A stretch of DNA of 64,000 bases, taken from the NCBI GenBank assembly GCA_019745505.1, contig JAIETE010000011.1, positions 1 to 64,000 of the forward strand, read 5' to 3'. Positions within the stretch are counted from its first letter, which is position 1, and each line of letters opens with the position of its first letter. The notes below the pieces were generated by a model. The model made no database searches, was not told where the DNA came from, and saw only the letters and a list, made by a program, of their open reading frames with translations. Shown here one piece after another: positions 32,062-43,132 of this stretch. Origin of the DNA: Candidatus Obscuribacterales bacterium (GTDB taxonomy: Bacteria; Cyanobacteriota; Vampirovibrionia; Obscuribacterales; Obscuribacteraceae). A program made the translations under genes and the position numbers.

Positions 32062-33618
32062 TTGTCAGAGTGGTACATAGATACAGACCCATGTATTAGA
32101 AGCATTATCTTTGCTGTGGATCCGAAACTCCCTGCCACTGGAAAGTCGAGAAGCTCAACCATAGATTCTTGGATGAGCGATCCAGGAACAGGCATTCATG
32201 AGATTGAGTATACTCACCAGACGGAAGAAGGGTTTCTATCTGCGCTGCTGAAGTTTCTCGATAAGACTGTCGACCAGAAGAGTTTCGATCCTCGCAGTGC
32301 AATTCTTTTCTGCTTCGCTTTTCTCGTGCTTCTCGTTCTCCATCCTGTCCAGACTGTGTGCTGGACTGCTGGAGTAATGGCGTTATTAGGTTTGTTATTG
32401 CTGAGCTCAGGGCTCTTCTCCAACTATCCGATTATTACTACTCAGGAGGGGATTACCTGGTCTCCCCTCCATGCGCTGAGCTTGAACTGTAAATTTTCGC
32501 GGCCTTGGAGTGATATTAAAGCAGTCGAATTCACGTACGGCCGCCAGATTTCTAATACGCCGGATAGTCTTTGCATTGCTTACAAAGACGGTTGTGATGT
32601 GCAATTGCGTTTGGCCGGCTTTACGAAGAAAAACTTGGAATTGCTCCTGCTGATGATTCGCAACCGCTGTCCTGAGGCTCGTTGGCTGCCCGATGATGAA
32701 CGTGTGAGAATGAATGTGGCCTTGACTGCAGCACCGACCAGTCAAATTTCTTTCACCGGCTTATGGCTTGACGAAATAGGGTCGCGTCTGGGAAGCACTG
32801 CCTTCGTCCCACTCGATCCAGGGACCATTCTGCAAGACGGCCGCATTAAAGTTATCGGGCAGATCGCGCTTGGCGGTTTGTCTGCAATCTATCTGGCGCA
32901 AACTGATGACAAGAAAGCATGCGTATTGAAGGAATCAGTGGTTCCTTTTTCTTCAGAAGACCAGGCTCGCAAGGTTGCGCTCGACTTGTTCAAACGTGAG
33001 GCGCAGTTGCTCGCGCGCATCGATCATCCTCGGATCGCCAGAATCTACGATTTCTTTATCGAAGACGATCATCACTTTTTGCTTATGGAGTTTCTCGAAG
33101 GAAGAAACCTGCGCCAGTATGTTCAAGAGCATGGTCCGCAGAAGGAAAATATGTCGCTTGTTTGGGCTAAGCAGATTGCCGAGATTCTGGCGTATCTTCA
33201 TGAGATGCAGCCCCCTATTTTGCATCGAGATTTGACACCCGACAATTTGATTGTTGAAGATGACGGTGCTATCAGTTTGATTGACTTCGGTGCTGCAAAC
33301 CAATTTCTTAGCACCGCAACCGGTACTATTATCGGCAAAACTTCTTACATGTCTTTGGAGCAGTTTCGCGGCAAATCAAGCCCGCCTTGCGATATCTATT
33401 CCTTTGGCTGCACGTTGCAATTTCTGCTTCTTGGCATAGATCCCGAGCCGTTTTCTTACTCTTCCACTGCTACCGGCCGTAATGATTGGAATACTTTGCA
33501 AGAGTTGATTCGCGAATGCAAGCACGAAGATCCGACCGCGCGCCCATCGGCGCGAATGATTGCCGAGCGGCTCGAGCTGATTATCAAAGAACGTGCTTCG
33601 AGGACCGCATCTACATGA
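32062..33618 (+). CDS. Membrane Ser/Thr protein kinase (first of a pair)
   Basis: The product has 518 residues from TTG 32062; ATG 32173 is an alternative and the exact start is uncertain. Two membrane segments at about 80-117 precede a PH-like or unknown domain (about 125-215). The kinase domain spans about 262-510: glycine loop IALGGLSAIYLA, Lys in CVLKES, HRDLTPDNL, DFGAAN and SLEQF. All catalytic residues are present. The HRDLTPDN form replaces the usual HRDLKPEN. It phosphorylates Ser/Thr on unknown targets. The next gene starts inside its stop codon (ATGA). Confidence 0.88.
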   Translation: MSEWYIDTDPCIRSIIFAVDPKLPATGKSRSSTIDSWMSDPGTGIHEIEYTHQTEEGFLSALLKFLDKTVDQKSFDPRSAILFCFAFLVLLVLHPVQTVCWTAGVMALLGLLLLSSGLFSNYPIITTQEGITWSPLHALSLNCKFSRPWSDIKAVEFTYGRQISNTPDSLCIAYKDGCDVQLRLAGFTKKNLELLLLMIRNRCPEARWLPDDERVRMNVALTAAPTSQISFTGLWLDEIGSRLGSTAFVPLDPGTILQDGRIKVIGQIALGGLSAIYLAQTDDKKACVLKESVVPFSSEDQARKVALDLFKREAQLLARIDHPRIARIYDFFIEDDHHFLLMEFLEGRNLRQYVQEHGPQKENMSLVWAKQIAEILAYLHEMQPPILHRDLTPDNLIVEDDGAISLIDFGAANQFLSTATGTIIGKTSYMSLEQFRGKSSPPCDIYSFGCTLQFLLLGIDPEPFSYSSTATGRNDWNTLQELIRECKHEDPTARPSARMIAERLELIIKERASRTAST

Positions 33619-35102
33619 CTGCCTCTAACTCCAGTGACAAGAAGAAAACAGGCCTGCGGTGTATTGTCGTCGAGACTGTGAACAACAAGCAGCCTGACGA
33701 CTATAAGCATGTTTACCTGAAGCTGGCGATTGGATTTGCGGTCGCCTTCTTTTTCATTTTCTATTCGCATCAGGGGGCTTTGGTCGGTCTTTGGAAGTTG
33801 CTTGTACTTCACTTCGCGCGTGATTGGTGGTTGCTCATGGCGGCTGCTTCGCTCTTTGTTGTAGGTATTGCCGTGGACGAGAAGAACCGAGGAACAAGAG
33901 GTCTCTTGCGTGTCACGAGAGTCGATACGAAGGGTATTGTGATGGGGCGCCCTGGTCAAAAAAAGACGGAGGCAACTTACTTCATTCCGTGGAATATGCT
34001 CACGTGTGTCGAAAGTGGCATTGATGATTCGGGTAAGCAGCCCTATGAGTTTATCCTGCTTCGCATGGGTAATTATCTAGCCTACAAGCTTCGCCGAGAC
34101 ATCGGTTTTAACTGGGTTGATGAGCAAACGCTTCTGACCAAGGCCAGGCAACATGCTCCCAATGCAAAGTATCAGATTGAGCGAAGTTTCACGGATGTGA
34201 AAAGCAATGATGCTCGTTATACGAATATATGGCTGCAGTATCTGGCTCCCTCCGGTCAGAGAGAGCGAAAGGGGCATCTGCAGCCCGGTGATACGCTCAA
34301 TCGTGGCAGATTCGAAGTGATTCGCGTTCTCGGTGCGGGCGGTCAAGGAACAGCTTATCTCGCGAAGGTTGTAGATGGGCCGAGCGTTGACATCGCCGAC
34401 CGGCTGGAAGAAGGCAAATTGGTGGCAGTCAAAGAATATATTCTTCCGATGCATGCTAATGAAGGCTTGTCTTCGCGTCTAAAAGATTCACTCGACAATG
34501 AAGCGAAGATTTTGTCGGGCATCGATCATCCGAATATTGTCAAACTCTATGATTGCTTTGTCGAAGATCATCGCGGTTATATGGTTCTCGAATACATTGA
34601 TGGTCCATCATTGCGCGCGCATATCAAATCAACAGGTCCGGCAAAGAGTTTGCTTGTTGTCTGGTGGGCGCTCGAGATTTGCTCTATTTTGCGTTACTTG
34701 CAGAGTTTGAAACCACCGATTGTTCATCGGGATTTGACGCCGGACAATCTGATCTGGAAAAGCGATCGACATATCAAGCTCTTCGATTTTACAGTGGCGC
34801 ATAAGTTCGAGGCCCAGAGATTGGCAACAGTCGTCGGCAAGCAATCATACATGGCGCCTGAGCAAGTTAAGGGTTTGCCCTGCCCTCAGAGCGACATCTA
34901 CTCTTTAGGCGCGACAATGTATTTCCTTTTGACAGGTGAAGATCCTGAACCGCTATCGGTAGCCAGCCCGCGCGCGCTGAATCCTGATGTGGATGAGAAG
35001 CTCGATCGGATTGTTCAGCGTTGCATGCAGTTCGATTTAAAGAAGAGATATGCAGATCCCAGGGAGATAGAAAAGGAGCTTTCTGAAATAGGTGCCAGCT
35101 AG
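33615..35102 (+). CDS. Membrane Ser/Thr protein kinase with altered DFG motif (second of a pair)
   Basis: The product has 495 residues from ATG 33615, overlapping the preceding stop by four bases. Two membrane segments (about 33-50 and 70-88) are followed by an unrecognised domain and a kinase domain from about 225: GAGGQGTAYLA, VAVKEY, HRDLTPDNL and APEQVKG. The metal-binding motif reads LFDFTVAHK, so DFG has become DFT: the Asp is kept, the Gly is Thr. Layout and the HRDLTPDN loop match the upstream kinase, so they arose by duplication and may act together. Activity may be altered. Confidence 0.87.
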   Translation: MTASNSSDKKKTGLRCIVVETVNNKQPDDYKHVYLKLAIGFAVAFFFIFYSHQGALVGLWKLLVLHFARDWWLLMAAASLFVVGIAVDEKNRGTRGLLRVTRVDTKGIVMGRPGQKKTEATYFIPWNMLTCVESGIDDSGKQPYEFILLRMGNYLAYKLRRDIGFNWVDEQTLLTKARQHAPNAKYQIERSFTDVKSNDARYTNIWLQYLAPSGQRERKGHLQPGDTLNRGRFEVIRVLGAGGQGTAYLAKVVDGPSVDIADRLEEGKLVAVKEYILPMHANEGLSSRLKDSLDNEAKILSGIDHPNIVKLYDCFVEDHRGYMVLEYIDGPSLRAHIKSTGPAKSLLVVWWALEICSILRYLQSLKPPIVHRDLTPDNLIWKSDRHIKLFDFTVAHKFEAQRLATVVGKQSYMAPEQVKGLPCPQSDIYSLGATMYFLLTGEDPEPLSVASPRALNPDVDEKLDRIVQRCMQFDLKKRYADPREIEKELSEIGAS

Positions 35103-35270: not shown

Positions 35271-36062
35271 ATGGGCAACGACGTTCCCCGTGAAATGAGC
35301 GCACTCGCTCAGAACGAAGTCACTTTTGCTGTACTTCGTGACGCTGTAGTCGACGACATGCTGGTTAACGGCAAAGAAGCCGTTCTGCGCAGCAAAGTCA
35401 CGCCGATTGCCGGCGGCGGCATGCGCGTAGAAACTTCCGGTCCGATCGACGCGATGTTGAAGGACTTCACGATTCAAGGCAATGTCACCGGTGAGAGTGT
35501 AGCCTTTAATCCCTTCCAATCCGGTTTTCGTCTTCCGAGCCTCGGAACGCACGTCGTTGGCGAGTTCACCGTCGGCAACATGAAGGGGCAAGTTCTGGAA
35601 CGTGATAAATTCGAGTTTTTTGGTTCTGAAAAGAATTATCAATTTGACCGGGCTGATTTAGCGACAGTAGGCATAACCCGCACGGATGCGAGCGGCAAAG
35701 TGATTCAAAAGTTGAATCCGGCGATTTCCGAGGAGAAAATCGTAGGTGGGCGTTATGCATATGACGCAAACAATCAACCGATACGCGTGGCTCGTCTTAG
35801 TGAAGGCGAGGCAAATTGCGGAAAAGAGAATATCGCTAATCCCGGCAACCGACGCACGGAATGCAACTGGCTGGTCGACGATAGTTCTACCAAGATGACC
35901 TACTCATACAATCAAACTTACGATCGTGGAGACTTGCGCAGTGTGATTCGTGTCGGCGAAACACCGCGGGCGATTGTTCATCAACTCCCCGAATATGACA
36001 AACAGGGCAATTTGATTGCCGTGACCACCAGCATAAGGCCGGTCATCGTCAAGAAAAACTAG
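35271..36062 (+). CDS. Hypothetical beta-rich protein
   Basis: The product has 263 residues. No signal peptide or membrane segment. The sequence alternates Val/Ile/Thr with Gly, consistent with a beta-structure, and includes two Cys at about 185-200. TATACA lies about ten bases before the ATG and there is no clear ribosome site, so translation may be leaderless or the start misplaced. I do not recognise a family. Confidence 0.55.
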   Translation: MGNDVPREMSALAQNEVTFAVLRDAVVDDMLVNGKEAVLRSKVTPIAGGGMRVETSGPIDAMLKDFTIQGNVTGESVAFNPFQSGFRLPSLGTHVVGEFTVGNMKGQVLERDKFEFFGSEKNYQFDRADLATVGITRTDASGKVIQKLNPAISEEKIVGGRYAYDANNQPIRVARLSEGEANCGKENIANPGNRRTECNWLVDDSSTKMTYSYNQTYDRGDLRSVIRVGETPRAIVHQLPEYDKQGNLIAVTTSIRPVIVKKN

Positions 36063-36312: not shown

Positions 36313-39237
36313 TTAGACAGACTGGTCCGGCAAAGTGACCGAAAATGTGGCGCCTTTCCCGCTTGCCGAGACGACGCCAATGGTACCTCCATGGGCTTCC
36401 ACGAGCATGGTACAGATGTGCAGTCCAAGTCCTGCGCCGGCAATAGGGGCGGTAGTCGAGCCGGTAGGCTCGCTGCCTGAATCGACACGCTCGCTGGCCT
36501 TGCCGGTCGCCTGTTCGAATTTCTGGAAGATCTTTGCCTGGTCGGACTCGGATATGCCGGGACCTTCGTCTTTCACGTTAATCCTGACCCCTCTGTTGAC
36601 TCTATTGGCTGATAGTGTGACCTGACTGCCATTGGGCGAGAACTTGATGGCATTGCTGACCAGATTGACCATAATCTGAAGGACGCGCTCTCGATCTCCG
36701 TGAGCTTTGAGGTCGGAAGGTTCGCAGATGAGTTTTATGGATTTGATATCTGCCAGTAACTGCAGCGCTGTTATAGTCGCTGCGAATACTTCATTGACAG
36801 AGAATTCCGACATATTCAGTTGGAGCGCATTTTTGTCCAGCATCTCGATATTGGTGAGGTCGTCGACGAGAGCACCAAGGCGGCTCAGCTCACTGACAGC
36901 ATTGCGAATATTAGTGGCTGCTTTGTCCGGTAAAGGCTGCTCTGAAACTTCGAGCACCCTGGCTATATCTGCGCTTGCTTCCAAAATTGGTTTTTTCAGC
37001 TCTTCGCGAAGCAGCGAAAGCAGTTCCAACCTCTGATTTTCCAGCTGTCTAAGTTCGAGCGCGGAATCATAGATGTATTTGTCGAGCACGGCGATTTCGT
37101 CTGAGCCCTTGGTCGGTGCCTGAAGCGGCTCCGCGCTGTTCAGGCGCTTGGCGTTGCCGATGGCATTGTAGAGGTGCAGAGTCAGCAATTTGCTCAATAA
37201 GCGATTGGCAAGTACAGTGCTGACCGTGACAAGCAAGATTCCCAAAAGAAGTATCGAAATAGCCTTTTTTCGATCGCGAAGTTCCGACGACCTGTCGTCC
37301 AGAAGCAGCTTTTCGCGCTCACGCACGAGGCGCGTGCGGTAGAAATACATCTCCTCGGGCAATCCCTTCTCGATGGACGGGAGTGCATTGAACCTGTCTT
37401 TTAGCTGATTCGACTCGGAGTTGAGAAATTCCTGCTCGGTAATTTGTATGTCCTTCATTTGCTTTTTCAAGCGCCTGAGCGTCTCTCTTTCTTCTTGGTC
37501 AGAGCTTTTTTGAAAAATAGATTCGAGCTTGCTCAGGCTCGCATCGGTCACGCCTACGTATTGAATCCTGCGTTCAGCGAATTCGGCGCTCTTTGTCAGA
37601 TTGAACATCATCGTGCAAATGCCGGAATACATATGCCCTGAATGGATGCTGTTGAGGCACTGGAGAATTTGATACGAGCGGTATTCTCTTTGGATTTCAT
37701 TTTGCGATCGATCAATCATTTGGCTAAGCATCCAGAGCATGGTGCAGCAAATGATGGCCGGAACAATGATGAGCGCAAGCCCCGCTTCAGCGATTCTGGA
37801 GCGTTTGACGGAGAATTCCGAATGGGACGGCTCGTCTGGGCTGTCCGGCGCTGATATTTTGTTACTGTGAGCAATTGCAGCCGGCGTTGTTTTCGGAAAG
37901 ATGAGAGTTGTTTGCTCTGTTTCAACACTGACTGTGATGCCGCAGAAATCCGCTAAGATCGCCGCCAATGAAAATCGAACGCTTGCATTGTATCCACCCT
38001 CTCTGTCGAGCGCCGGTGCGATGGTAACAGCGATTTGTTCGTGCTTGTCTGCTGTCAGAGCAATGGAACTTTTTTCAGGATCGGCAAGACTGGCGATGAT
38101 GCGCGCCGACGCTTCCAAGTCACCACCAAACTCAAGGTCCAGGTCGTCATTTGAAAAATGGAGAGAACACTTGTTCAGCTGGGGTTTTTCTTGCAGCAAT
38201 TCTATTAGTTCGGCAAGTGTGTATTTTTGAAAGAAAAGGTTGAATTTGCCGGCTTTTGCACGTTCTAGATCCAGGACGTCGTTTACGAGTGCTCCCAGTG
38301 TCTTGCACCTAGCAACCGGTTGGGCGAGCAATTCTCTGGCTCTGTCACTAATCTCCCCATAGGCGCCGTTTCTAGCCAGGGTGAGGATGCCGCCGATTGA
38401 TGTCAGCGGTGCGCGTAAGTCGTGGCTGACCGCCCCAATCAAATCTTCTTTGAAGCTGCGGAGGCTGAGCAGTTTTTCGGCTGAAAGTACAATCGCTTGA
38501 TCCAGCTCGCTGAGCTCATCCTCACCAGCCAGAGGGGATTGCGGTTTTTTTCCGGCCTTTACCTGATTGACATGCGCATATATTTTCGAGAGACGAAAGA
38601 TCAAAACTCTTGAGCCCCACAGCGCCGTCACACCCGTCAGGGCGACGCAGCAAGCGAAGAATATCGAGATCAGCTTGCGTATTTTTGCGGAGTTGCCCAC
38701 GAATGACTCTTGTGTAACCGGCTCCGTCCTTAACTTCTCGAAGCAAGTACCCATCGGATTAAGCCACTGGTTAATCGATGCATATATTTGTGCTTTCAAA
38801 ATCGGGTTTAGATCAGTATTGAAGTAACTGACTGCGTCTTTGCGCATGAGCAAGTACACGCCGTGATTGCACTGGTCGATGCGCCTCAGCAATAGCTCAG
38901 TGTCACGTGCATATTCCGGGTGATTGCGTGTCAATTCCGTGAGCGCCTGCTTCTTCTGAAATACTTGCTGCATCGTCGAGTTGTATCTCTCAGAGAGCTC
39001 CGGGCGTTTGGTTATGCTGTAGAAGAACGACGTGTAGGCGCTCTCGATATGAACGCGCTGCAGGTCGTCCAGGACGGCGAGAATACGACGTCTGTACACC
39101 AGATCGGCAAGATTGTTATTGACTTTGCTGACTTCTTGATAGAGAAACAGGCTGATGCCAATCTGAAAAATCAGCGGGGCAACGATCAGAATCAGCAGTT
39201 GGTCGCGGATCTTCAGTTTGGGAAGCTTTAGATTCAC
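36313..39237 (-). CDS. Tandem double histidine kinase with complementary defects
   Basis: The product has 974 residues made of two homologous kinases in series. Half 1 (1-470): membrane segment 14-32, extracytoplasmic helical sensor, membrane segment 188-208, HAMP, intact HisKA (AVSHDLRAPL, His272), but an ATPase domain lacking the N and G boxes. Half 2 (480-974): membrane segments 483-506 and 659-678, a similar sensor, HisKA in which the His is Glu745 (LREELKKPI), then a complete ATPase (VNLVSNAIKFSPNG, DEGPGI, GAGLGLHI). The ATPase of half 2 probably phosphorylates His272 of half 1. The response regulator gene ends four bases upstream. Confidence 0.9.
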   Translation of the reverse strand: MNLKLPKLKIRDQLLILIVAPLIFQIGISLFLYQEVSKVNNNLADLVYRRRILAVLDDLQRVHIESAYTSFFYSITKRPELSERYNSTMQQVFQKKQALTELTRNHPEYARDTELLLRRIDQCNHGVYLLMRKDAVSYFNTDLNPILKAQIYASINQWLNPMGTCFEKLRTEPVTQESFVGNSAKIRKLISIFFACCVALTGVTALWGSRVLIFRLSKIYAHVNQVKAGKKPQSPLAGEDELSELDQAIVLSAEKLLSLRSFKEDLIGAVSHDLRAPLTSIGGILTLARNGAYGEISDRARELLAQPVARCKTLGALVNDVLDLERAKAGKFNLFFQKYTLAELIELLQEKPQLNKCSLHFSNDDLDLEFGGDLEASARIIASLADPEKSSIALTADKHEQIAVTIAPALDREGGYNASVRFSLAAILADFCGITVSVETEQTTLIFPKTTPAAIAHSNKISAPDSPDEPSHSEFSVKRSRIAEAGLALIIVPAIICCTMLWMLSQMIDRSQNEIQREYRSYQILQCLNSIHSGHMYSGICTMMFNLTKSAEFAERRIQYVGVTDASLSKLESIFQKSSDQEERETLRRLKKQMKDIQITEQEFLNSESNQLKDRFNALPSIEKGLPEEMYFYRTRLVREREKLLLDDRSSELRDRKKAISILLLGILLVTVSTVLANRLLSKLLTLHLYNAIGNAKRLNSAEPLQAPTKGSDEIAVLDKYIYDSALELRQLENQRLELLSLLREELKKPILEASADIARVLEVSEQPLPDKAATNIRNAVSELSRLGALVDDLTNIEMLDKNALQLNMSEFSVNEVFAATITALQLLADIKSIKLICEPSDLKAHGDRERVLQIMVNLVSNAIKFSPNGSQVTLSANRVNRGVRINVKDEGPGISESDQAKIFQKFEQATGKASERVDSGSEPTGSTTAPIAGAGLGLHICTMLVEAHGGTIGVVSASGKGATFSVTLPDQSV

Positions 39238-39241
39238 AAGA

Positions 39242-39919
39242 CTAACTCTTGGAGTTGATTCGATAGCCTAAGCCCTTGGATGTTTCAATGAAAGACGGCT
39301 GGCCTTCGACGTCCATTTTTCTGCGCATTTTCGTGATGCAACTGCGTAATGCAACTTCGGTCGCCTCTGAGTCCGTATCCCAGACTCTAGCCATTAGCGC
39401 TTCTGCCGTGAAGTAAGTGTCGGGGTGGCGCATGAGAAATTCGAGCAGAGCCAGTTCGCGTGGTTGCAGTCGCACCAGGGCATCTCCACGCTTAACTACT
39501 CCAGCGTTCGTGTCCAGCTGCATTCCTGCGACATGCAAAACATCCTTGGTTATTTGCTGCGGTCGTTTCAGCAAAGCCTTGACTCGTATGACCAATTCGC
39601 GCACATCGAACGGTTTGGTCAGATAATCATCCGCCCCTACGGCAAATCCTTTCTCTTTGTCGTCCATAGAGGCTCTTGCCGTTAGAAAGAGCACAGGGGC
39701 CTGTTCTCCCTGATTGCGAAAATGGCTGCAAAGTTCGATGCCTGACTTGTGTGGCAGCTCCCAGTCCAGAACCAATAGTTCGTAGCTGCCGGCATCAATG
39801 AAAGCCATACCGCTGCGCCCATCGGCACAATCATCAACGGTGTGGCGCTCCGCTTCCAGAGTGTCTCGCACCAACTGCCGCAACATCGGGTCGTCTTCAA
39901 CTATTAGTATCTTAGCCAT
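39242..39919 (-). CDS. OmpR-family response regulator
   Basis: The product has 225 residues. The receiver has VEDDP, phospho-Asp52 in LVLDWELPHKSG, LTAR and TKPFDVRELV. The winged-helix domain has LQPRELALLEFLM and a recognition-helix region (VALRSCITKMRRKMD), ending in TSKGLGYRI. It is the partner of the double kinase encoded four bases downstream in the same operon. Confidence 0.93.
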   Translation of the reverse strand: MAKILIVEDDPMLRQLVRDTLEAERHTVDDCADGRSGMAFIDAGSYELLVLDWELPHKSGIELCSHFRNQGEQAPVLFLTARASMDDKEKGFAVGADDYLTKPFDVRELVIRVKALLKRPQQITKDVLHVAGMQLDTNAGVVKRGDALVRLQPRELALLEFLMRHPDTYFTAEALMARVWDTDSEATEVALRSCITKMRRKMDVEGQPSFIETSKGLGYRINSKS

Positions 39920-40047: not shown

Positions 40048-42048
40048 CTATTCAGGGCGCTCACGAGGCCATATCTTGGTAATTTCTTGATTAATCTCCT
40101 CGCCGAGCCTGTTTCCTAGGCGTGGGCGGTATGGCAGTCTCATAGCTTTGAATGCATCGATGGCTGCTCTGCCTGTGATGCTGCATTCTTCAATCGAGAT
40201 GAATTGAAGACTTGGCAATCTGGTTAAGTATTTCAATCCCTTGTCTGTAATTTTAGGGTTGTAGCCTATATTCAGATGCGTGAGGTTCGGCATCGTGTCT
40301 AGATCTTTGAGGTCTTCATCAGACAGATCACTGGCGGTAAGAGCCAGTTCACGAATTGCTCTGGAACCTTTCAATGCTTTGATGATCTTGCCGCCCTCTC
40401 TCAAGTGGCATGCCCGCAGATATTCCAGATGCATAAAAGAGTTCAGGCTGCTGAGTCCTTTCCATGTGACATCGGTTCCATCGACATTGAGTATTCTCAA
40501 AGGCAAATCTCTAATGTACTGCAGTCCCGCGTCCGAGATTTCGCAGTTCTTCAAACACAGAGATTTCAGCGATTTCAGGTGGTCTACATAAACCATTTCA
40601 CTGTCCGAGAGCGGTGATTGCGCTGTGATTTTGTAGCTCGAAAAGGCGGTCTCGGTGAGCCCCGCTTCCTTGAAATCCAATAAAGTGATGTCATCTTCCG
40701 CGAAATTATTCATGAATTGCGGGTGCGAGAGGAATAGAGAATTCGGCATGAACATCACTTCGGCTGCCGCTGGAACAGTTACGGTGCCGCGTGCTTCTTT
40801 TCTGTATCTTGTCCCTCTTGCATAACCAATTTGACCAATTGAAAAGTTGTCCGGGAAAGTGAAGATTCTGAATCTTCCATCTTCTGAAATCTTCGACCAC
40901 GGCCGTCTTGGCAGATCAGGCGCCTGTTCGATTGGCTTTTGAGTTTGCTGTTGGTTGTAGAAAATCAATCCCAGCATGCCTAGGACGCCGGTCAGCAGAA
41001 TGCATGCGCTGATAAGGAGATACTTGGTCTGCGGATTCGATTGCTTCTTTTGCGGGACACTGAAGGACTTCTGGAGTATGGCTGTACTGCTCAATCCCTT
41101 TTGTATACCGATGAGCATTTGCGCGACATCCAGCAAACTCTGAACGCGTTTGTCTGGATCCTTTTCCAGCATGCTCGCCACGAGTATCTCAATCTCCTCT
41201 GGAAACTCTCGCCCCATCGAAGCTTCCTTGAGCGTAGTGGGCTTTTCGGACTGATGCTTCATGATCGTCGCGAGCGAGGTTTCGCCTGAAAATGGAGGAG
41301 CACCTGTGAGCACCTCGAACATTACACAGCCCATAGAGTAAATGTCGGAGCGGTGGTCGACCGGTTTTCCGAGGCATTGCTCCGGACTCATGTAGAAAGG
41401 ACTTCCAATGATTTCTCCGGTGCGTGTCAGTGAATCGGTTTCATTGAGACCTCGATGCAAGAGCTTTGCGATGCCGAAGTCGAGCACTTTAACGTGCTCA
41501 TTCTCCGAGTCGATACCCGGGGTCGTGAGCATGATGTTGGACGGTTTGATGTCTCGGTGAACGATATTGTGGCTGTGTGCATAACCAAGCGCAAAGCACA
41601 GTTCAACGAAAATCTTAATGGCCACGTCCAGCGGCACGACTCCCGATGTCTTCAACACGGAGGAGAGAGTGCGTCCTTGAACGAAATCCATCACCAGAAA
41701 TGGCTTTACGTTATCGATGAAGCCAAAATCCCTGACCTTGACCAGGCCCGGGTGGTCCAGCTTGGCCAATAATTTTGCCTCGGCATGAAAACGTTTGATC
41801 GAGGATTCTGAAAATTCATTGCCGGTAAGCGTTTTGAGGGCCATCTGGCGATTGAGCAGCACCTGTTCGACTTTGTAGACAATGCCCATTCCGCCTTCGC
41901 CGATGCTGTCGACGAGGCGATATTTCCCCTCGACCATCGTGCCGATTGAAAGGAATGACTCGGGAATTTTGCCTGGCTGAAGAGTCACTTCGAGCGTGCG
42001 CTCGTCGCGTTCATCCTCCGTATCGTTCGTGTGGTCGTTCGGCGTCAT
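40048..42048 (-). CDS. PknB-type Ser/Thr kinase with leucine-rich repeats outside the membrane
   Basis: The product has 666 residues. The kinase domain (about 42-305) is canonical: IGEGGMGIVYKV, ALKTL, HRDIKPSN, DFGIAK and SPEQCLGK. One membrane segment lies at about 343-362. The C-terminal part (about 440-650) is leucine-rich repeats of the L..L.L..C.ISD.GL..I type. LRR protein at 42185 is a divergent neighbour with the same repeat style, so the pair may share a ligand or complex. The extracytoplasmic LRR is likely the sensor and the kinase its cytosolic output. Confidence 0.92.
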   Translation of the reverse strand: MTPNDHTNDTEDERDERTLEVTLQPGKIPESFLSIGTMVEGKYRLVDSIGEGGMGIVYKVEQVLLNRQMALKTLTGNEFSESSIKRFHAEAKLLAKLDHPGLVKVRDFGFIDNVKPFLVMDFVQGRTLSSVLKTSGVVPLDVAIKIFVELCFALGYAHSHNIVHRDIKPSNIMLTTPGIDSENEHVKVLDFGIAKLLHRGLNETDSLTRTGEIIGSPFYMSPEQCLGKPVDHRSDIYSMGCVMFEVLTGAPPFSGETSLATIMKHQSEKPTTLKEASMGREFPEEIEILVASMLEKDPDKRVQSLLDVAQMLIGIQKGLSSTAILQKSFSVPQKKQSNPQTKYLLISACILLTGVLGMLGLIFYNQQQTQKPIEQAPDLPRRPWSKISEDGRFRIFTFPDNFSIGQIGYARGTRYRKEARGTVTVPAAAEVMFMPNSLFLSHPQFMNNFAEDDITLLDFKEAGLTETAFSSYKITAQSPLSDSEMVYVDHLKSLKSLCLKNCEISDAGLQYIRDLPLRILNVDGTDVTWKGLSSLNSFMHLEYLRACHLREGGKIIKALKGSRAIRELALTASDLSDEDLKDLDTMPNLTHLNIGYNPKITDKGLKYLTRLPSLQFISIEECSITGRAAIDAFKAMRLPYRPRLGNRLGEEINQEITKIWPRERPE

Positions 42049-42184
42049 AGGGCTCCGAGTTCAGAACCAAGCCTTCGCGGGGCTAAGGCTTCGAGCATAC
42101 TCTTTATACCCGCCTCTATCCTGATTGGCATGTTTTTTGTTGTATGGTAGGTGCATGAGGCTCATAGCGTGCTTGATACAGGAA

Positions 42185-43132
42185 ATGAAGCTGTCATTCA
42201 AGACTAAATTTGCAACTTGCGCCGCTTTTTCGCTGATTTTGCTGTCGGCTTTTCTCAGTTCAGCCGATTGTGCGGAAAAATCGACCCTGATTCGCTTCCC
42301 TCAGCAGCCTATCGGGCACTACGGCTTGGTCCGGGTCGCGAAAAATCCCTCCGACGATGTCGTTCTCCGCGGCAATAAATGGGCTGCAGGCGTTGTAAGT
42401 GTGCCGGCCGGCTGTGCGATTAACCTGACTTTGAACTACCAGGGCAGTCAAAGTACGAATTTCATTCGCACCTTGCCTGCAAAAATACTTCGGGGTCTGA
42501 CTTGCAGGGATCTGGAAATTGACGACAGAGCCGTTGGCGATCTATGTAGTCAAAAAGGTCTGGTGCAGCTCAATTTGCAAGGAGTTGATCTTTCCGACCA
42601 GGGCATTAAGCAGATTAGCTCGCTGAAAGAGTTGCGTAAGTTGAGTCTCTCCGATACTTTAGTCACTCCGAAGGGGCTGGCTGTTTTGCGAGATTTGCCT
42701 TTTCTGGAAAACCTAAACCTTTCGCGTCTCCCGCTTGGAGAGCGGGTTGATGAACCTTTGCAGCCGTTGAAAAATCTCTACAGTCTCGATCTGACAGGAA
42801 CGCAGCTTACCGACAGGGCCGTCATCAATTTGCCTGCATTTCCGCATCTGCGAACCCTGATCCTGCGGCGCAACAACCTGACGGACAAATGCATCGACTC
42901 GCTGCTCAGGTTCAAAAAAATGCAAAACCTCGATTTTACCGATACTCGTGTGACGGGTGAAGGCTTGAAGAGGTTGAAAGGGCTGCCGCGTTTGCAGATG
43001 ATTATTATTCGAACTGCCAGTTTGAAGTTCAATGATAAGTCTCAGCTCAAGAAGTTGATTCCGGGCATCCTGATCGAGGAAGGTTCGCACGAAAAGGTCG
43101 TTCCGCGAGAGATATTCGCGCCTTTGCACTGA
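42185..43132 (+). CDS. Exported leucine-rich repeat protein
   Basis: I start it at ATG 42185, which gives a textbook signal peptide (FATCAAFSLILLSAFLSSADCA); ATG 42155 is in frame and possible. About 315 residues. After 75 residues of unknown domain come six or more LRR units (LVQLNLQGVDLSDQGIKQI; LRKLSLSDTLVTPKGLAVL). They resemble the repeats of the LRR-kinase encoded divergently about 140 bases away. Protein-protein recognition at the surface or in the periplasm is inferred. Confidence 0.8.
   Translation: MKLSFKTKFATCAAFSLILLSAFLSSADCAEKSTLIRFPQQPIGHYGLVRVAKNPSDDVVLRGNKWAAGVVSVPAGCAINLTLNYQGSQSTNFIRTLPAKILRGLTCRDLEIDDRAVGDLCSQKGLVQLNLQGVDLSDQGIKQISSLKELRKLSLSDTLVTPKGLAVLRDLPFLENLNLSRLPLGERVDEPLQPLKNLYSLDLTGTQLTDRAVINLPAFPHLRTLILRRNNLTDKCIDSLLRFKKMQNLDFTDTRVTGEGLKRLKGLPRLQMIIIRTASLKFNDKSQLKKLIPGILIEEGSHEKVVPREIFAPLH

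Follow-up and report, generated by a model that had tools for sequence, protein, structure and literature searches.

Ordinary histidine kinases are symmetric homodimers, and because of this symmetry it is hard to tell which subunit senses, which burns ATP and which accepts the phosphate. In the Rv0600c/Rv0601c pair of Mycobacterium tuberculosis, one protein carries the ATPase and the other carries the His. These two kinase genes, which unlike the case described here are separate, cooperate with a single regulator, TcrA (PMC9274095). In Rhodobacter sphaeroides, ATP-binding and phosphoacceptor functions are divided between CheA3 and CheA4, neither of which phosphorylates itself, whereas the mixture does (PMC3591291). 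CheA3 and CheA4 are two cytoplasmic CheA proteins that use a separate P1 domain, whereas the protein analyzed here consists of membrane HisKA-type kinases fused in one chain. FasB and FasC of group A Streptococcus are two sensor-kinase-like proteins that heterodimerize: the FasB kinase domain is proposed to phosphorylate H246 of FasC, FasC's own kinase domain is dispensable, and FasA is the response regulator (PMC12675982). FasB and FasC are, however, separate proteins and a single case, as opposed to a recurrent fused class, and FasB keeps candidate His residues, so that the loss is not strictly complementary. DivL and GacS-RetS are similar in being His-less kinases or heterotypic kinase pairs, but they modulate other kinases, and a composite active site within a single chain is not known for them. 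No report of a natural single-chain kinase with complementary halves was found in the open-access journal literature searched. Split kinases made of two proteins are already known; the fused, recurrent form appears to be new.

The gene considered here encodes a 974-aa tandem (double) sensor histidine kinase and occupies positions 36313–39237 on the (-) strand of a 64,000-nucleotide stretch of DNA (the window) from a Candidatus Obscuribacterales bacterium; all features of the kinase and its neighboring regulator given below are on this strand. Its start codon is GTG, located 4 bases past the stop codon of an OmpR/PhoB-type response regulator gene (39242–39919; PF00072 and PF00486), the likely partner. 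Pfam-A detected a single HisKA domain (aa 263–330, E 5e-11) and a single HATPase_c domain (aa 847–972, E 6e-25), which were in different halves of the protein. At E<=1, Pfam returned no HPt or CheW-like domain, the protein having HisKA instead. Hydrophobicity indicated four transmembrane (TM) segments starting at about residues 14, 189, 486 and 659. The order of domains was TM-sensor-TM-HAMP-like-DHp-relic, followed by TM-sensor-TM-HAMP-like-DHp-ATPase.

Half 1 begins with TM1 (aa 12–32) and a helical extracytoplasmic sensor (aa 33–187; together 38677–39204), as judged from hydrophobicity and AlphaFold helices, followed by TM2 (aa 188–208) and a HAMP-like linker (aa 209–257; together 38467–38676), and a DHp/HisKA domain (aa 258–330; 38248–38466) with the phosphoacceptor motif SHDLRAP. 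The Pfam match and motif alignment predict His272 (38422–38424) to be the phosphoacceptor. A relic ATPase domain (aa 331–455; 37873–38247) ends this half. Half 2 repeats the arrangement with TM3 (aa 484–504) and helical sensor 2 (aa 505–656; together 37270–37788), TM4 (aa 657–679) and a HAMP-like linker (aa 680–731; together 37045–37269), DHp helices without a His (aa 732–800; 36838–37044; motif REELKKP) and an intact ATPase (aa 807–972; 36322–36819), whose boxes are NLVSNAIKF (N box, 858–866), DEGPGI (G1, 890–895) and GAGLGL (G2, 934–939). The preliminary description had assigned a HAMP domain to both halves, but Pfam calls none in the 974-aa protein, and sub-threshold matches appeared only in relatives; the HAMP-like linkers are proposed from position and a conserved GxDE..LD motif. 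The HisKA helices that it had placed in half 2 were likewise invisible to Pfam, although they were recovered by a family DHp HMM (E about 0.02) and as AlphaFold helices (714–763 and 771–800). Two sensors are indeed present, but instead of being unrelated types they represent a single helical fold whose two copies have diverged: the regions around TM1 and TM3 share 25% identity across 76 aa, and the helix order in the AlphaFold model is similar.

The remainder of the window near the kinase contains a small ORF (35271–36062) that matches RHS repeats below threshold and lies on the opposite strand, directly downstream of the tandem kinase, and two consecutive Ser/Thr protein kinases (32062–35102), in which the kinase domain is C-terminal and is preceded by a hydrophobic region at the N terminus. 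At 40048–42048, a Ser/Thr kinase is joined to leucine-rich repeats, with a leucine-rich-repeat protein (42125–43132) divergently placed beside it.

The central claim of the preliminary description, that half 1 has lost its ATP-binding boxes and half 2 its phosphoacceptor, held up, and neither of the two findings that it named as refuting, an intact ATP site in half 1 or another His in half 2, turned up. The N-box Asn, DxGxG and GxGLG were all missing from half 1, and aa 335–455 gave no Pfam match to HATPase_c (PF02518) even at E<=1. His272 aligned with Glu745 (37003–37005), and no alternative His was found within the half-2 DHp (732–800). Among the features of a HisKA-type kinase, the DHp His was therefore present only in half 1 and the ATPase boxes only in half 2, with no unit carrying both. 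In the AlphaFold model, residues 337–446 showed an ATPase-like order of elements, E-H-E-E-H-E-E-H-E-E, as in the half-2 ATPase, with the lid missing. Profile–profile comparison of the relic (331–453) to the family ATPase profile gave P 0.009 and a probability of 4%, with the expected N-box helix aligned, whereas P was 0.066 and 0.25 for the two controls. Since this match is weak, the assignment as a relic rests on the order of the predicted structural elements and on relatives that preserve more of the relic, such as C107, where half 1 matched PF02518 with an E of 5e-5, below the cut-off.

Orthologs with the same architecture and 66–83% identity were found in five of seven congeneric genomes, the two without one being only 77% and 64% complete. 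His272 was kept in all orthologs, as was Glu745 (Glu in 6/6 orthologous proteins), and the half-2 ATP boxes were kept wherever the contig reached, two ortholog contigs ending before them. The genomes compared are draft metagenome-assembled genomes, and the orthologs come from Candidatus Melainabacteria, probably from the vicinity of Obscuribacter. A bacterial genome scan with the target returned orthologs in Melainabacteria only and ordinary single kinases elsewhere; at a strict cut-off, 385 further genomes sampled from the phylum yielded no close tandem relative. The source assembly consists of 340 contigs, which might raise the suspicion that two kinase genes were fused by misassembly. This explanation has a negligible probability and was ruled out, because the same fused frame occurs in full-length orthologs from three other assemblies, one of which (G006) has about 20 contigs. 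Another explanation would be that the gene is decaying, or encodes an inactive scaffold, and that the split pattern is a by-product. The relic does evolve faster than the rest of the protein (50–58% identity between orthologs, vs 63–92% for the sensors, DHps and half-2 ATPase; 69–92% for sensor 1), as decay would have it. However, domains other than the relic are about 54–100% identical between orthologs from separate assemblies, dN is well below a saturated dS (which makes per-domain dN/dS uninformative), and the catalytic residues are intact, so we regard decay as very improbable.

Structure prediction of the full chain, which the preliminary description had proposed as a check, placed the DHp of half 1 and the ATPase of half 2 next to each other, in the manner of one composite kinase. 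The single-chain AlphaFold model of the target (pLDDT 79, pTM 0.54) aligned with HK853 6rgy_B over 225 residues (Z 21.5, 4.8 A) spanning 257–972, which begins in the half-1 DHp and ends in the half-2 ATPase, and it also fitted an alignment restricted to half 2 (6azr_A, Z 21.4, 213 residues, 5.7 A). The single-chain model of the paralog C7 (pTM 0.59), which is about 21% identical to the target and lacks the relic, gave the same composite span more tightly. It aligned with DivL 4q20_B (223/225 residues, 3.0 A, model 288–894), HK853 5uht_A (226 residues, 3.0 A, 300–896), CusS 7zp0_A (214/217 residues, 3.2 A) and YycG 4u7n_A (206/211 residues, 2.5 A), and in the first-residue register of 5uht_A and 6rfv_B, His260 of HK853 fell opposite His312, the half-1 His of C7; these alignment ranges give the first and last residues only and do not fix which DHp donates the second helix. 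In two distant members, the half-1 DHp and the half-2 ATPase are thus predicted to be neighbors in the way seen within a single solved kinase protomer, although the HK853-like geometry of the models may reflect training bias.

Because half 2 lacks a phosphoacceptor and half 1 lacks ATP binding, neither would work alone, and the two halves most likely can work only as a pair. We consider it quite probable that the 974-aa protein is a single-chain split histidine kinase in which half 2 phosphorylates His272 of half 1, and His272 in turn serves the adjoining OmpR-type regulator. Two tandem, once complete HisKA-type kinases would now work as one membrane sensor kinase. Their two DHp hairpins would pack as an internal (pseudo)dimer, the half-2 ATPase would bind ATP and phosphorylate His272, and His272~P would hand its phosphate to the regulator encoded at 39242–39919. 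The two sensors, one on the acceptor and one on the catalyst, would act on a single output. We infer the phosphorylation of His272, the transfer to the adjoining regulator, the transfer within the chain and the joint control by two signals. The protein combines an acceptor unit without ATPase and an ATPase unit without acceptor, and with both halves on one chain it would work like a split kinase, though not in the strict two-protein sense, as it is one open frame that is also fused in the orthologs.

We surveyed 50 genomes of the family with two profiles and scored 58 tandem ORFs motif by motif. In class A, which comprised 28 of the 58, the His is in half 1 and the ATPase in half 2; two of these still had readable half-1 ATP boxes (G062_C171) or retained part of them (G011_C46). 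The mirror-image arrangement with the ATPase in half 1 and the His in half 2 (class B) was observed in 22, four of which (G020_C41, G060_C24a, G059_C66d and G059_C66e) were at an early stage, the changes being confined to some of the half-2 boxes. Both halves were intact in six tandems, and in the remaining two (L151 1795–5301 and L154 2825–6343) the half-1 ATPase was lost while both His were retained, which suggests that ATPase loss can precede His loss. The lost His was replaced by E, R, D, G, N or Q in class A and by Q, E, S, D, N, F or G in class B. Both losses occurred in one half in none of the 58 tandems from the 50 genomes; as these were gathered by similarity to tandem queries, this zero is exhaustive only for the long HATPase-bearing ORFs of the source genome (84% complete). 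That genome has 130 HATPase_c matches, and its five tandem kinases, namely the target and the four further ones (C7, C19, C109 and C107), all carried the His in half 1 and the ATPase in half 2, while the remaining long HATPase ORFs were ordinary, with one DHp and one ATPase each.

Some of the surveyed loci were unusual in themselves. At the early-stage loci L078, L165:2384–5461, L163 and L169:8187–11423, the half-1 His was gone and single half-2 ATP-box changes were seen (DHGAV, GLSL, GLAL). On G059:C66 (12000–43000; L168, L163 and L169), a stretch of about 30 kb carries an array of six split tandem kinases, every one of them a mirror image with the ATPase first and the His second, mostly without adjoining response regulators. 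L102 (G005:C190, 430 aa) encodes an ATPase half in which Arg takes the place of the His (MVARDIGKPL), is closest to the C107 tandem kinase and is possibly a cut tandem gene.

A careful maximum-likelihood tree was built from 146 ATPase domains of single and tandem kinases, its bootstrap being not fully settled. Class A required 10 label changes (bootstrap range 10–10), at least five of them forced by the starred branches, and class B required six (bootstrap range 5–6), at least two of them forced. Both arrangements were scattered among ordinary kinases, indicating that the losses recurred. The class A member G018_C133 shared a clade with the still-intact tandems G022_C683, G018_C103 and G054_C630, and three class B members shared a clade with the intact tandem G013_C11. 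If the decaying half simply died, both losses would coincide in one half. Under indifference, the chance of seven complementary outcomes in the seven forced changes is about 1 in 128, and that of all 16 label changes being complementary is about 1 in 65,000, figures to be read with the label changes as imperfectly independent and the sample as found by similarity to tandems. The complementary split in the 974-aa protein is confirmed as real and far above chance; as the preliminary description had asked of relatives, it is conserved in orthologs, and it recurs in dozens of relatives and in other lineages, also mirror-imaged.

These repeated losses bear on a further explanation, in which half 1 would receive its phosphate from a different kinase, or from the response regulator by back-transfer, and half 2 would be an ATP-gated regulator resembling DivL or RetS, not the kinase of half 1. 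The top Foldseek match is DivL, a kinase that lacks the His and has been repurposed, and the source genome has over 100 other HATPase ORFs. Complementary losses in both orders would, however, be expected if the halves depend on each other and not if half 2 merely regulates, and the ATP boxes of the catalytic half were intact wherever readable. We therefore judge this explanation improbable. On balance, we lean towards the view that in this family complementary losses, in both orders, have repeatedly made tandem-fused kinases into obligate heterodimers on a single chain, giving asymmetric sensor kinases with one sensor moving the acceptor, the other moving the catalyst, and a single output.

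In three adjoining gene pairs (L042 840–4486, L068 1492–4423 and L175 2301–5255), one protein has the acceptor His and the other has the intact ATPase, and both orders of the genes occur. In the G000:C191 pair, the first gene has His replaced by Glu and carries the ATPase, and the second has the His and a decayed ATPase. The G008:C23 pair has the His gene first, followed by a gene with His replaced by Tyr and an ATPase, and in the G013:C12 pair a gene with His replaced by Leu and an ATPase precedes a His gene with a decayed ATPase. Mutual dependence therefore does not require fusion, and fusion and complementary loss may have occurred in either order. Since the covalent link is dispensable in these pairs, transfer between chains is possible, and the same division of labor could operate in the 974-aa protein between chains, with like halves dimerizing and the ATPase of one chain phosphorylating His272 of the other. 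Ordinary histidine kinases do homodimerize through like DHps. We nevertheless consider this arrangement rather unlikely, because the single-chain models already join the half-1 DHp to the half-2 ATPase, and the retention of the fusion in several lineages would be more easily explained by intramolecular pairing.

With regard to the output of the proposed single-chain kinase, an OmpR-type regulator gene adjoins five of the six orthologous kinase genes; none was present beside the sixth (G004, same gene as L179; also L044), for which 6 kb upstream was readable. Such a regulator lies within 3 kb of 26 of the 28 class A genes, and for 24 of the 26 the distance is no more than about 250 bases or the frames overlap, whereas most class B genes have none. 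The residue at +4 from the acceptor His was S or A in 28/28 class A members and T in 21/22 class B members. The phosphatase-motif rule quoted by Amin et al. is H-E/D-x-x-N/T, and the class A acceptor motif is H-D/E-x-x-A or -S. By this rule, class B acceptors are predicted to keep the phosphatase residue and class A acceptors are not, so that class A members may act mainly as kinases, and a difference between kinase-only (class A) and bifunctional (class B) proteins is possible.

In these proteins the roles are fixed to the halves of one chain, so that cis/trans transfer, half-of-sites behavior and two-signal gating become testable by point mutation, and they provide a natural template for engineered two-input sensors. 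As a whole, the series from intact tandems through one-sided loss to complementary loss, together with the two-gene versions, documents how mutual dependence could arise.
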